Source: Pseudarthrobacter oxydans (GTDB taxonomy: Bacteria; Actinomycetota; Actinomycetes; Actinomycetales; Micrococcaceae). Taken from it: DNA of 64,000 nucleotides. The stretch is taken from NCBI RefSeq assembly GCF_030812335.1, contig NZ_JAUSSN010000004.1, forward strand, positions 372,001 through 436,000. Direction: 5' to 3'. The translations under genes and the position numbers were made by a program. The notes under the pieces are model-generated. The model was given only the letters and a program-made list of their open reading frames with translations, searched no databases and was not told the origin of the DNA. Position 1 is the first letter of the stretch. Each line of letters starts with the position of its first letter. Shown here in pieces: positions 45,511-51,149 of this stretch.

Positions 45511-47343
45511 ATGGCCAAGCAGACCTCATTTTTCTCCTCCATCAGCCGTCTCTACCCCCACGTCAAGCCGATCATTCCGCGGCTCGTCCTGGGGCTGCTC
45601 TGCGCCCTGCTCGCCAGCGTGGTGGCCCTGACCATCCCCCAGGTGCTGCGAGTGCTGGTCAACGAGTCCCTCCAGCCCGGCGGCAGCGCGGACGCCGTCT
45701 GGATCGCCTCCCTGATCATCCTTGGCCTCGGCATCGCCGAAGCCGGGCTGGTGGCGCTGCGCCGGCAGTTCGTGATCAACCCCGCCACCACCGTCGAGAC
45801 GCGGATGCGGGTGTCCCTCTATGACCACCTGCAGGACCTGACGGTCTCCTTCCACGACCGCTGGGGCTCCGGGCAGCTGCTCTCCCGCGCCATGACGGAC
45901 CTGAACTTCCTGCGCCGCTGGATGGCCTTCGGCGCCATCATGCTGGTGGTGACCACCCTGACCGTGGTGATCGGCGTTGTGGTCATGTTCACGATGAGCT
46001 GGCAGCTGGCGCTGATCTTCCTCGCCGCGGCCGTGCCGATCATGATCTACGGCTTCCGGTTCCGCACCCGCTTCAGCAAGGTGGCCCGCCGCAGCCAGGA
46101 CCAGGCCGGCGACCTCGCCACCACGGTCGAGGAATCCGTCCACGGGATCCGCGTGCTCAAAGCCTTCGGCCGCAGCCGCGAGGCGCTGGAGAACTTCAAC
46201 GAACAGGCCGAAGAGCTCCGCCAGACGGAGATCGTCAAGGCCAAGCACCTCGCGACCTTCAGCCTCGTCGTCACCCTCCTGCCCGAGCTGGCCCTCGGCG
46301 CCGGCCTCGTCGTCGGCGTCATGCTGGCCTCCACCGGCGAGCTGAGCATCGGCGCCCTCGTGGCGTTCTTCGCCACCGCCGCCGTGATCGCCACCCCGGT
46401 CGAGTTCTCCGGCATGCTGCTCGCCATGGCCCTCACCGCCAAGTCCGCCGTCGACCGGCACTTCGAGGTCATGGACGCGGCAAACACCATCACCAGCCCC
46501 GAACAGCCCCGCCGCCCCGCCGAGCTCAAGGGCGCCCTCAGCTTCAACGGCGCCAGCTTCGCCTATGAGGACGCCCCGGACAAGCCGATCCTCAAGGACA
46601 TCACCCTGGACATCCGGCCCGGCGAAACCATGGCCCTGGTCGGCATCACCGGCAGCGGCAAAAGCGCGCTGCTCCAGCTGGTCCCCCGGCTCTACGACGT
46701 CACCGACGGATCCATCACCATCGACGGGGTGGACCTGCGCGAGTTCAGCGTCGAGGAGCTCCGCACCGTGGTCGCCGTCGCGTTCGAGGACACCACCCTG
46801 TTCTCCAGCTCGGTCCGCGACAATGTTCTGCTCGGCGCCCCCTCCGGCCTCCCGGCCGAGCGCCGCGAGGCCGCCCTCGAGGAGGCGCTCGACGTCGCCC
46901 AGGCCCACTTCGCCTACTCGCTCCCGGACGGTCTGGACACCTTGATCGGCGAAGAGGGACTCAGCCTCTCCGGCGGGCAACGGCAGCGCATCGCCCTGGC
47001 CCGGGCCATCGCGGCCCGGCCCAGGGTCCTGGTCCTGGACGATCCGCTCTCCGCCTTGGACGTCCACACCGAGGAACTCGTCGAGACCAGGCTGCGGGCG
47101 GTGCTCACCGACACCACGACCCTGATCGTGGCCCATCGGCCCTCCACCGTGGCGCTGGCGGACCGGGTGGCGCTGCTGGAGGAGGGCCGGATCACCGCGG
47201 TCGGCACCCACACCGAACTGCTCACGGAGAACCGGCACTACCGTTACGTGATCGCCAGCCTCGACCCGGAACCGCGGGACCTGGACTCCGACCTGCTGGA
47301 CTCCGAACTGTCTGGGCTCAACGCCGAGGAGGTGTCCCGATGA
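45511..47343 (+). CDS. ABC exporter half-transporter 1 (degenerate nucleotide site)
   Basis: This 610-residue protein has an N-terminal six-helix membrane domain ([20 protein letters not shown] and [20 protein letters not shown]) and a C-terminal ATPase domain. Walker A is [13 protein letters not shown], signature [15 protein letters not shown], and Walker B is [13 protein letters not shown], where the usual catalytic Glu after the Asp is Asp. That predicts a catalytically impaired site, as in heterodimeric type IV exporters (BmrC, TM287). The next gene supplies the intact site. The substrate is not predictable. Its stop overlaps the start of the second half-transporter. Confidence 0.92.
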
Positions 47344-49169
47344 GCAGCGCAACCTTCGGCACCGCGAACGAGGACAACGCGCACCTGTCCAAAAGCGAGA
47401 GCAAGACCGTCCGGCGCCGCTCCCTGGCCCTGCTGGGCTCGCTCATCCGCCCGGTCCGCCGGCGCTTCTGGCTGACCATTGCCGCCGTCGTGCTGTCCCA
47501 GGCGGCGCGGGTCGCCGGGCCCGTGCTGATCGCCTTCGGCATCGACCGGGCCCTGCCCGCCCTGACCGCCGGCGACAACCTCCCGCTGCTGCTGACCGGC
47601 GTCGCCTACCTGGCCGCCGCCGTCGCGACCGCGTCCCTCACCGCCCTGTACGTGACCTCCACGGCGCGGCTGAGCCAGGCGATGCTGCTGGACCTGCGCG
47701 TCCGGGTGTTCCGGCACACCCAGCGGCTCAGCCTGGAATTTCACGAAAAGTACACCTCCGGGCGCATCATCGCCCGGCAGACCTCGGACCTGGAGGCGCT
47801 GCGCGAACTCCTGGACTCCGGGATCAGCTCGCTGGCCTCGGGGATGCTGTTTATGGTGTTCACAGCCGTGACCGTGTTCGCCCTCGACTGGCGCAGCGGG
47901 CTCCTGGTGCTGGCCGCCGGCGTGCCGATGTACTTCCTGGCCCGCTGGTACCAGAAGCACTCCCAGATCGCGTTCCGCGAATCCCGCGTCGTCTCGGCCC
48001 GGCTGATCGTGCACTTCGTCGAAACCATGACCGGCATCCGCGCGGTCAAGGCCTTCCGCAAGGAACCCGAAAACGCCGCACGCTACGCCGACCTCTCCGA
48101 GGACTACCGCAAGGTCACGGTCCGCTCCATCAACCTCAACGGCATCTTCCAGCCCGGCCTGGTGCTGATCGGCAACGTCTGCGTCGCCGTCGTGCTGCTC
48201 TTCGGCGGCTTCCGGGTGCTCAGCGGCGAGCTCGCCGTCGGTGTGCTGCTGGCCCTGATCCTGTCCACCAAACGTTTCTTCCAGCCGGTGGACCAGATGG
48301 CCATGTTCTACAACTCCTTCCAGAGCGCCCAGGCGGCGCTGGAGAAGGTCTCCGGGCTGCTCGAGGAGGTCCCCACCGTCCGTCCGCCCAAGAATCCGGT
48401 GGCCCTGCACGATGCCAAGGGAACCATCGACTTCAGGGGTGTGGAATTCCGCTACGGCGACGGCCCGGTCATCATCCCCACCATGGACCTGCACATCCCG
48501 GCCGGCCAGACCGTGGCGCTGGTGGGCCAGACCGGCGCCGGGAAGTCCACCTTCGCGAAGCTGATCGCCCGCTTCTATGACGTCTCCGCCGGCTCCCTCA
48601 CGCTCGACGGCGTGGACCTGCGGGAGCTGGCGACGGCGGATCTGCGCCGGAACGTCGTGATGGTCACCCAGGAGGCCTTCCTGTTCAGCGGCTCCGTCGC
48701 GGACAACATCGCCCTGGGCCGGCCCGGGGCCTCCCGCGAGGAGATCGAGGCCGCCGCGAAGGCCGTGGGGGCCCACGAGTTCATCCAGGAGCTCCCGGAA
48801 GGCTACGACACGGACGTCAACAAGCGCGGCGGCCGCGTCTCCGCCGGGCAGCGCCAGCTGATCAGCTTCGCCCGCGCCTTCCTGGCCCGGCCCGCCGTGC
48901 TGATCCTGGACGAGGCCACCTCCTCGCTGGACATCCCGTCCGAGCGGCTCGTGCAGGCCGGCCTCGCCAGGCTGCTGCAGGGAATCGGCGCCGACAGCGG
49001 CCGGACCGCCCTCATCATCGCGCACCGCCTGTCGACGGTGGAGACCGCCGACCGGGTCCTCGTGGTCCACGACGGGCGGGTCGTCGAGGACGGCACGCCG
49101 GAGCAGCTGATCGGCGGCGGCGGCCGCTTCGCGCAGCTGCACGGGGCCTGGAAGGACTCGCTGGTCTGA
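47340..49169 (+). CDS. ABC exporter half-transporter 2 (consensus nucleotide site)
   Basis: This 609-residue partner of the preceding protein has a six-helix domain ([20 protein letters not shown] and [19 protein letters not shown]) and an ATPase domain with Walker [20 protein letters not shown] and Walker [13 protein letters not shown] with the catalytic Glu. Its signature is a non-canonical [15 protein letters not shown] instead of LSGGQ. The asymmetric pair is the classic heterodimer: one good site from this Walker B plus the first protein's LSGGQ. ATGA overlap (47340-47343). It ends just before tRNA-Pro and, further on, the peptide locus. Confidence 0.92.
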
Positions 49170-49275: not shown

Positions 49276-49352
49276 CGGGATGTGGCGCAGCTTGGTAGCG
49301 CGCGTCGTTCGGGACGACGAGGTCGCAGGTTCAAATCCTGTCATCCCGACCA
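49276..49352 (+). tRNA. tRNA-Pro (anticodon CGG), CCA encoded
   Basis: The cloverleaf is visible: acceptor CGGGATG/CATCCCG, D-arm GCGCAGCTTGGTAGCGC, anticodon stem CGTCG/CGACG with loop TTCGGGA (anticodon CGG at 49310-49312), T-arm GCAGG-TTCAAAT-CCTGT. The discriminator A is 49349 and CCA is 49350-49352. It reads proline CCG codons. tRNA genes are common integration sites, but no partial repeat of its 3' end or integrase is seen here. Confidence 0.95.
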
Positions 49353-49439: not shown

Positions 49440-49482
49440 AAAAATAGCCCCGGGACAGGGTTCGCGCCTGCCCCGGAGCTAT
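49440..49482 (-). terminator. Intrinsic terminator of the repeat-peptide gene
   Basis: On the minus strand ATAGC-t-CCGGGgCAGG pairs with CCTGtCCCGGgGCTAT, followed by TTTTT (complement of 49440-49444). It ends 12 bp after the peptide stop codon, so the peptide gene has a dedicated terminator. Confidence 0.85.
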
Positions 49483-49493
49483 CAAGCTACTGT

Positions 49494-49739
49494 CTACATC
49501 GGGTCCGGCCAGTTGCCGATGTTGGTGGAGAAGGTCATCGGGTCCGGCCAGTTGCCGATGGCTGAGAGGCTGCCCTGGGTGGAACTCATGGGATCGGGCC
49601 AGTTGCCGATCGCCAGGGTGGTGCTGCCCATCGGGTCAGGCCAGTTGCCGATGGCGCTAATTGACAGGACTGCGGGAGCCGCTGCGGAGAGAGCCAGCGC
49701 CCCCGCCAGGGCGACGGAAGCTGCAATCTTCTTGATCAT
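49494..49739 (-). CDS. Secreted precursor with four IGNWPDPM repeats: candidate pheromone precursor
   Basis: This 81-residue protein has an N-terminal Sec signal: two Lys (MIKKIAA), hydrophobic SVALAGALALSAAAPAV and probable cleavage around APA-VLS. After it come four perfect octapeptides IGNWPDPM at residues 30-37, 44-51, 61-68 and 74-81, the last ending at the stop codon. Linkers are short and Ser/Thr-rich (GSTTLA, SSTQGSLSA, TFSTN). The repeat DNA differs at synonymous sites (for example CCT/CCC/CCG and GAC/GAT), so the peptide, not the DNA, is conserved. Start ATG 49739 has TGAGGA upstream. It is divergent from an HTH-TPR regulator. I infer a multi-copy secreted signal peptide released by proteolysis; no such family is known to me. 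Confidence 0.85.
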   Translation of the reverse strand: MIKKIAASVALAGALALSAAAPAVLSISAIGNWPDPMGSTTLAIGNWPDPMSSTQGSLSAIGNWPDPMTFSTNIGNWPDPM

Positions 49740-49804
49740 GTGGGTTCCTCAATACGGGTCGGAAACGCGAGTCGGACACATTACAAAGCCAGCACGAGCC
49801 CTTG

Positions 49805-49865
49805 TTGACATACATTGTAAAATGGCTTGCACAGAGACTGTCAAGCATTTAGTACAAAGACTGTC
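49805..49865. promoter_or_regulatory. Overlapping divergent promoters between peptide gene and regulator
   Basis: Plus strand: TTGCAC (49827-49832), 17 bp, TAGTAC (49850-49855) for the regulator. Minus strand: TTGACA (complement of 49839-49844), 19 bp, TACAAT (complement of 49814-49819) for the peptide gene. The two promoters interlock. Motifs that could be regulator sites are direct repeats AGACTGTC (49835-49842 and 49858-49865) and an inverted pair TTGTA (49815-49819) / TACAA (49853-49857). The region is AT-richer than the surroundings. Confidence 0.7.
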
Positions 49866-49883
49866 CGGAATTAGGAGGTATCC

Positions 49884-51149
49884 GTGGGGAACGGATTCGG
49901 GGAGAAACTCCGAGCGGAAAGGCTCGAACGCGGCCTGACGCAAGCGGAATTGGGCCGGGATCTGTACTCGCCCAGCTACATCTCCCTGCTGGAGACCGGG
50001 CGCCGTGAACCAACAGCCGATGTGATCGAGGAGCTGGCCCGGCGGCTCGAACTCGCCCCCAAGGCGCTGGAGGCGTGGAGCCAGCCGGTGTCGGTCAGCG
50101 ACGCCGAGTATGTTCTCGCGGGCCTCTATGCGCGTCAGGCCTGGGACCTCCGGGATTACGCGCTGGCGGCGACCCACGCCGCGGCTGCGGCCCAGATTGC
50201 CCTCGAGGCCAAGAACACCAGCGCCTGGTGGAATATGACCTACATGCAGGCCGAGTGCCTGATGAAGCAGGGCCAGCTGAAGGAATGCCAGGACCTTGTG
50301 CAGCGACTGCTGGACCACCCGATGGCCGCCGAATCGGCAGGCCTGGGGGTCCGCGCCCGTCAGATGCTCGCGGCCGTGTGCCACGGCCAGGGCCAGCTGA
50401 CAGTCGCCGTCGAACACGCGCAGGAGGCCGTGCGGCTCTGCGCCGAGCTTCCCAAGGGTTCCACCCTGATCATCGGTGCGCTGCGCGCCCTCATCGGCGC
50501 GCTGGCCGAAAGCGGACGCCTCGATGAGGCCTGGGAGTATTGCCAGGCCATGAACGAGCAGATGGACGACCACTCCATGACCCAGCTCGCCGGCGAGGTC
50601 GCCTGGGTGATCGGGAATGTAGCCTTCATGCGGCATGACTACACGGAGGGCATCAAATACCACGAGCGGGCGGCCCAGCTGCTCTCCCCCGCCAACGACA
50701 TCGACCTTTGGGCGCGGTTCAACAAAGCCTCGGCCGCCGTCCGCCTGTCCTCCGGAATTGTTGAGCCTGAGACCCTGACTTCGATCGAGCGTGCCGAGCT
50801 GGCGCTCTCGATCGTCGGCGGCAACCGAACGGACCAGCTTGAGGTCGCGTTCATCCGGGCCCGCTGGCTCTACCTGACCGGGGACATCGTGGCAGCGGTG
50901 CAGAAACTGCGCGAGATCCATGCCGACAAGGATGCGCTCGCCAAGCACGTCGCCGGGGAGGTGGCCCTGCTGCTCGGCAAGGCGCTCAAGGCCGCGGGCG
51001 AATCCGACGAGGCCCTCGTCTATCTCGACGAAGCCCAGAAGGAATTCAGTGCAGCCGGCGCCTCGGACCGGGTCCAGCAGGCGATGGACGCCGTGCTGGA
51101 AATCCGGCTCGCGCAGCGCCGCGCGCAGGCCGCGTCAACCGGAACCTAG
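49884..51149 (+). CDS. XRE-type HTH plus TPR regulator (RRNPP-like)
   Basis: This 421-residue protein has an N-terminal XRE/Cro helix-turn-helix (FGEKLRAERLERGLTQAELG, then LYSPSYISLLETGRREPTAD, residues 5-60). About 330 residues of helical TPR repeats follow (WNMTYMQAECLMKQGQLKE, LGVRARQMLAAVCHGQGQLT, AWVIGNVAFMRHDYTEGIKY and VALLLGKALKAAGESDEALV). HTH followed by a TPR array is the architecture of RRNPP regulators (Rgg, PlcR, PrgX, NprR), which bind imported signal peptides. GTG 49884 has AGGAGG 5 nt upstream. The divergent peptide gene makes a ligand-receptor pair likely. Other HTH-TPR regulators exist that do not sense peptides, so the ligand is inferred. Confidence 0.88.
   Translation: MGNGFGEKLRAERLERGLTQAELGRDLYSPSYISLLETGRREPTADVIEELARRLELAPKALEAWSQPVSVSDAEYVLAGLYARQAWDLRDYALAATHAAAAAQIALEAKNTSAWWNMTYMQAECLMKQGQLKECQDLVQRLLDHPMAAESAGLGVRARQMLAAVCHGQGQLTVAVEHAQEAVRLCAELPKGSTLIIGALRALIGALAESGRLDEAWEYCQAMNEQMDDHSMTQLAGEVAWVIGNVAFMRHDYTEGIKYHERAAQLLSPANDIDLWARFNKASAAVRLSSGIVEPETLTSIERAELALSIVGGNRTDQLEVAFIRARWLYLTGDIVAAVQKLREIHADKDALAKHVAGEVALLLGKALKAAGESDEALVYLDEAQKEFSAAGASDRVQQAMDAVLEIRLAQRRAQAASTGT

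Follow-up and report, generated by a model that had tools for sequence, protein, structure and literature searches.

A window of 64,000 nucleotides from Pseudarthrobacter oxydans (contig NZ_JAUSSN010000004.1, positions 372,001 to 436,000; plain coordinates below are those of this window) contains, at positions 49,440 to 51,149, two divergent genes which we consider, with good confidence, to be a two-gene peptide-signalling module, composed of a precursor that is predicted to be secreted and carries the peptide IGNWPDPM four times and, as candidate cytoplasmic receptor, of a regulator with a helix-turn-helix (HTH) domain and tetratricopeptide repeats (TPRs). Judged from genomes, the pair is likely a conserved actinobacterial module of an RRNPP-like pheromone and its receptor. 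The analysis shows the genes and the repeats, their conservation, a conserved element between the genes, a profile match of the regulator to PlcR and the modelled fold. The features concerned are the following.

49494 to 49739, minus strand: precursor gene, 81 amino acids, signal-peptide-like start and four IGNWPDPM copies (open reading frame (ORF) translation, homologues)
49662 to 49739, minus strand: predicted N-terminal signal peptide region, residues 1 to 26 (Lys-rich start and hydrophobic run, kept in homologues)
49629 to 49652, minus strand: repeat 1, IGNWPDPM, residues 30 to 37
49587 to 49610, minus strand: repeat 2, IGNWPDPM, residues 44 to 51
49536 to 49559, minus strand: repeat 3, IGNWPDPM, residues 61 to 68
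49497 to 49520, minus strand: repeat 4, IGNWPDPM, residues 74 to 81, abutting the stop codon
49443 to 49483, minus strand: terminator-like hairpin 3' of the precursor gene (folding compared with shuffles)
49805 to 49845, no strand: conserved two-part element TTGACA-N6-GTAAAAT-N15-TGTCAAG, 41 bp, candidate operator (from conservation; the function is predicted)
49805 to 49821: dyad TTGACA-N5-TGTAAA inside the 41-bp element
49884 to 51149, plus strand: regulator gene, 421 amino acids, HTH at about residues 5 to 64 and eight TPR-like helix pairs at about residues 71 to 391 (Pfam, structure model)

The precursor protein begins with MIKKIAASVALAGALALSAAAPA, and it is from this N-terminus that its secretion was predicted by eye. 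The four identical octapeptides reported in the earlier note are present, and the copies differ, as that note had also observed, in synonymous codons for Pro (CCT/CCC/CCG), Asp (GAC/GAT) and the second Pro (CCG/CCC). No domain match was obtained for the precursor in Pfam and NCBIfam scans. The hairpin 3' of the gene has a folding energy of -31.6 kcal/mol (z -5.45) and a U-run at its end, and none of 200 shuffles was as stable. Where the earlier note took the octapeptide as the unit, the conserved unit is probably shorter, because residues after the core differ between copies in some lineages: at locus L045, S, A, T or F follows VGNWPDP, and at locus L058 the copies vary after VGDWPH.

In a sample of 150 same-genus genomes taken from a larger group, a translated search detected the precursor in all 150, and the regulator was likewise found in all 150 with 77-100% identity, the best match being partial in four, of which one (G092) has an internal stop. 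Coordinates indicate divergent pairing in 147 of these genomes, with matches 125-289 bp apart, and the other three, which were read directly, are divergent as well, so that the divergence claimed earlier (across a gap of 144 nucleotides in the window) and the joint conservation of regulator and repeat ORF, which the earlier note wanted checked, both hold throughout the sample. Names attached to source sequences include Arthrobacter, Pseudarthrobacter and Sinomonas and also Paenarthrobacter and Specibacter. Among 120 listed of 377 precursor homologues, the copy number ranges from 1 to 5 (2 to 5 in 119), GNWPDPM stands at the C-terminus in 112, and the linkers between copies are variable, as had been claimed, with 152 of 248 being distinct. 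As this count used a GN-x-PD pattern, a fairer one accepts any Trp-Pro (W-P) unit: of 34 distinct precursors, drawn from 41 same-genus loci, 33 are multi-copy, and 105 of the 107 W-P units in the whole set are GNWPDPM. Altered copies occur at two of the three loci that were read directly, at locus L269, which has IGNWPDPM plus IGNWPDTM, and at locus L270, where a single GNWPYPV is found.

The regulator starts with GTG and is matched in Pfam by HTH_31 (1.7e-11), HTH_3 (8.3e-11) and TPR_12, while an NCBIfam scan gave no match. RRNPP(A) receptors are defined by a right-handed superhelix of 5-9 tandem TPRs that encloses a concave pocket (PMC9765709), and RRNPP_detector looks for receptors of 250-500 amino acids with an adjacent propeptide gene (PMC10075063). 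The regulator has the XRE-type N-terminal HTH of such receptors (absent in Rap), eight modelled helix pairs of the tandem-TPR superhelix (predicted local distance difference test score, pLDDT, 91.6), a length of 421 amino acids and the divergent precursor in 150/150 same-genus genomes. When a profile of 57 regulator relatives was compared with solved structures, PlcR was the top match (1.2e-11), aligned only over positions 4-215 of 414, in agreement with the RRNPP-type architecture that had been proposed. The structure model resembles Rap, NprR and AimR, and Foldseek returned a match to the PlcR-PapR7-DNA complex. Among the Trp, Asn and Arg positions kept in at least 90% of the 57 relatives, W115, W116, W241, N245, W276, N280, R287 and W328 are situated, according to our own reading of the model, on helix one of a TPR-like pair, and W217 on helix two.

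Relatives of the regulator (E-value at most 1e-15) were detected in 66 of the 149 Micrococcaceae genomes and in 17 of its 32 genera, and 71 receptor loci (L031-L101) were read, of which L062-L101 are 40 loci chosen by hand from a longer list; L031-L060, like the same-genus loci L001-L030, were returned automatically. A precursor, defined by rule as a divergent ORF with a signal-peptide-like start and W-P within 520 nucleotides, is present at 45 of the 71 loci, compared with 11 of 1820 dinucleotide-shuffled upstream regions made from these loci plus 20 order-level loci. In the window, purC lies beyond the regulator, and 38 of the 71 receptor loci occupy this orthologous place. There, the peptide reads by lineage [IVT]GNWPDPM, VGNWPDP[SATF], VGIWPNS, VGNWPDAV, VGNWPDAS, TGNWPN, VWIWPD (VWIWPDS), VGEWPH or VGDWPH. 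The random variation between species that the earlier note had considered as a possibility is thus not what is seen; the peptide changes by lineage and retains Trp-Pro. Beside the HTH receptors L066, L068, L078 and L083, short ORFs were noticed that are possibly leaderless and have a W-P core at or close to their end (MKRIPRPARTSTAVGNWPD is one example).

An overlapping promoter shared by the two genes had been suggested, yet a scan between precursor and regulator gave no promoter with a 16-18 nucleotide spacer, and the conserved 41-bp element was found instead, a candidate operator to which the regulator may bind. Across genera its form is TTGACA-N6-GTAAART-N15-TGTCAAG, beginning 74-137 nucleotides 5' of the receptor start, and no match was obtained in 1900 shuffled stretches. 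All 26 purC-place loci that carry the element with at most 3 mismatches possess a precursor. Of the remaining 12, two do so (L050 and L051, with shifted element spacing) and ten have none by rule, two of which (L066 and L068) carry a leaderless candidate; the association of element and precursor has a Fisher p of 1.4e-7, which is not corrected for relatedness. Some purC-place HTH receptors with neither a W-P precursor nor the 41-bp element (L056, L062-L065, L079) are possible eavesdroppers or converted regulators. In the whole genome, the strict element, allowing up to 3 mismatches, occurs as a single copy, between precursor and regulator. The dyad with 1 mismatch has five other genomic sites, against 2 in the control, and three of them, at or 5' of an ORF start, were considered weak. 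Where one such copy, TTGACAGTGCACGTCAA (L133, G000:C5:108988-109004), is located, an ORF begins that appears TPR-like by eye and might be a further target.

The same genome (G000) encodes a TPR paralogue of the regulator without HTH, 38% identical over residues 63-402, and its locus (G000:C8) has the following features.

L061:1117-1302, minus strand: divergent precursor of the paralogue, 61 amino acids, holding VNWWPDT and VNWWPDA
L061:1465-2532, plus strand: HTH-less receptor
L137:7350-8882, plus strand: HAMP-GGDEF-EAL gene, just beyond the paralogue's precursor

The precursors of HTH-less receptors often carry just one copy, at the very end of the protein (for example GYWPF, NNWPG or GWWPN), and in all six genomes in which both kinds were read, the peptides of HTH and HTH-less receptors differ. 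A relative of the GGDEF-EAL protein is encoded at 14 of 17 HTH-less receptor loci, always on the receptor strand (14/14); at 11 of these loci it is downstream of the receptor and at the other 3, the P. oxydans locus among them, past the precursor, and Pfam confirmed GGDEF plus EAL in 3/3 neighbour proteins tested. At locus L091 the GGDEF-EAL-type ORF, taken from its furthest upstream start, overlaps the HTH-less receptor by 4 nucleotides. Locus L074 has two tandem HTH-less receptors and two different precursors (...LIDDWPH; VGNWPGS twice), as if duplicated.

From these observations we infer a sequence of export, processing, import and binding; the direction in which the regulator acts, and any targets other than the module's own promoter, are likewise part of this proposal. 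The precursor would be exported via its signal peptide, proteases would free a Trp-Pro peptide with a core of about [IV]GNWPD(P), and an oligopeptide permease, for which nine SBP_bac_5 matches above the cut-off in the same genome are candidates, would re-import the released peptide. Inside the cell, the peptide would bind in the hollow of the TPR superhelix, on its concave side, and so alter the regulator's hold on the two-part intergenic element, and in this proposal the precursor gene would therefore be autoregulated.

Two observations weigh against a signalling module. Generic TPR proteins outside the RRNPP group match the regulator model equally well or, in some cases, better, the fold being widely shared. 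Furthermore, the other side of the precursor is occupied by tRNA-Pro (49276-49352) and then by two ATP-binding cassette (ABC) exporter half-transporter genes (45511-49169), and a relative of the nearer one (47340-49169) was found beside the precursor in 30/30 same-genus loci (L001-L030); of the 38 purC-place loci, where the stretch was often too short to tell, 15 have it there. This exporter gene, which accompanies the pair in the genus, speaks for an explanation in which the repeat protein acts outside the cell as an effector, either an antimicrobial or a ligand of the envelope or of an enzyme, and the regulator controls the gene without binding the peptide. A predicted-secreted gene divergent from a regulator is a common layout that would suit such an effector. 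Yet the near neighbours of the pair in the window are tRNA-Pro, the two exporter genes and purC, with no gene for immunity or peptide modification seen among them, and the adjacency of purC and the exporter could be stable synteny. As peptide and receptor change together from genus to genus, as paralogues have different peptides, and as the divergent layout is kept by HTH-less receptors too, an effector appears quite unlikely.

With the same chemistry but no communication role, the system might be a private export-import gauge, in which a cell senses its own re-imported peptide as a measure of timing or of the state of envelope and permease and not of population density. The module's own promoter is the one place where the strict element occurs, so the circuit may be self-contained. 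However, 2 to 5 copies in 119 of the 120 listed precursors suggest that the amount of peptide matters, and paralogues with distinct peptides in one genome (6/6) are as expected of separate channels, so that we regard a private gauge as unlikely. That an ordinary HTH-TPR regulator stands by accident beside an unrelated repetitive secreted protein would be compatible with how common HTH and TPR domains are and with receptors lacking an adjacent precursor, but the 150/150 divergent pairs in the genus, the 45/71 loci as opposed to 11/1820 shuffles, and the absence of element and precursor together at the purC place refute a chance neighbourhood as a general explanation, and we give it next to no credence. 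Signalling by a precursor-receptor module remains the reading that we prefer.

Outside the Micrococcaceae, three VGGSWPT units were found at locus L102 and a C-terminal SDTWPA at locus L104. More distant HTH-TPR receptors (E-values of 2e-20 to 9e-30 with the A2 profile, in a set of 20 sequences) have divergent precursors of 41-74 amino acids with Cys-Cys (CC) at or near the C-terminus. By rule, such precursors are present at 7 of 20 order-level loci (shuffle rate 7/1820), with L111 and L113 added by eye, and no clear precursor was found at the order-level loci L103, L105, L110, L114 and L116-L120. A profile of ten CC-type and five W-P receptors detected relatives in 66 of 246 class-level genomes (E-value at most 1e-20). 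Of 28 distant loci (L220-L247), 23 have a divergent precursor with CC as its last two residues, and 6 of these precursors also contain W-P; the CC precursors have about 40 amino acids and a signal-peptide-like start (for example L225, L230 and L220), and one hybrid ends in ...EPNWPTMCC. They were found at 20/20 loci of family f38 and 3/8 elsewhere. The named sequences closest to one f38 receptor come from Jiangella, Haloactinopolyspora and Phytoactinopolyspora, and f38 looks like Jiangellaceae. Among 20 weaker loci (L248-L267), in 17 of which the receptor could be placed, three precursors end in CC, one ends in CCG and one has two GWP units. In all, eight families (f15, f18, f27, f32, f35, f38, f39, f46) show the CC type, which fades with distance. 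At locus L264, the receptor start is like those of Streptomyces plasmids, and a divergent signal-peptide-like ORF of 57 amino acids has two DIGWP units.

Plasmids with HTH-TPR relatives comprise 27 records, all from Streptomyces, at about 26-35% identity, and a divergent precursor of the W-P or CC type was seen in none of the eight records examined, L127 having a downstream ORF ending in ...IPLCC. Phage carriage was not detected, with 0 matches in 50,697 phage records. Taken together, these loci might represent a class-wide peptide language of actinobacteria, in which cytoplasmic TPR receptors are paired with divergent secreted mini-precursors whose peptides have a Trp-Pro core (Micrococcaceae and relatives) or end in Cys-Cys, and hybrids carrying both W-P and CC link these kinds. 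HTH-less receptors would then be coupled to GGDEF-EAL enzymes, and pheromones would directly control cyclic di-GMP (c-di-GMP). This broader proposal is weakened because 20 of the 23 CC loci belong to one family, and we are slightly more doubtful of it than confident.

If the two-gene module is what it seems to be, an encoded peptide and a candidate receptor gene in 150/150 genomes of one genus would make cell-cell signalling in these bacteria directly testable with the synthetic octapeptide. The broader family would supply many receptor-peptide pairs for specificity studies and a direct path by which peptide signals might reach c-di-GMP.

Among known systems, PlcR-PapR of the Bacillus cereus group, in which a small secreted precursor is encoded next to PlcR, is the closest by profile, PlcR being an HTH plus TPR regulator as here and the top match among solved structures. 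Unlike PlcR (293 amino acids in the solved chain), the actinobacterial regulator has 421 amino acids and its precursor is usually multi-copy, and the peptide core GNWPDP is unlike PapR7 ADLPFEF (PMC6568020). Neither Rap-Phr nor NprR-NprX of Bacillus is among the matches listed for the regulator profile (60 of 73), and the HTH-less receptors differ from both in standing near GGDEF-EAL-type genes. RopB is an Rgg-type receptor, and leaderless communication peptides that act with RopB-like receptors have similar counterparts in the possible leaderless W-P ORFs at L066, L068, L078 and L083. Those systems belong to Firmicutes (PMC10518010), unlike the actinobacterial loci described here. The earlier note had likened the repeats to yeast alpha-factor more than to bacterial pheromones. 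This comparison is unnecessary because Firmicutes RRNPPA propeptides, like the present precursor, can contain several identical copies, up to 6, and such multiple copies are common with AimR, NprR, Rap and PlcR (PMC9765709). Two RRNPP surveys dealt with Firmicutes, one of them (PMC10075063) also with viruses, and this one states that actinobacterial signals are usually described as enzyme-made small molecules; Arthrobacter is cited for LuxR-type evidence from bioinformatics and for quorum quenching (PMC4748050), and luxR-related genes of an Arthrobacter are the subject of PMC9659744. In the literature searched, which included few subscription papers and had bioRxiv preprints outside its scope, no actinobacterial RRNPP-like system was found, in line with the novelty claimed earlier, and no paper contained the string GNWPDPM. 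While multi-copy precursors and RRNPP signalling are thus already known, mainly from Firmicutes, what appears to be new here is their likely actinobacterial counterpart.
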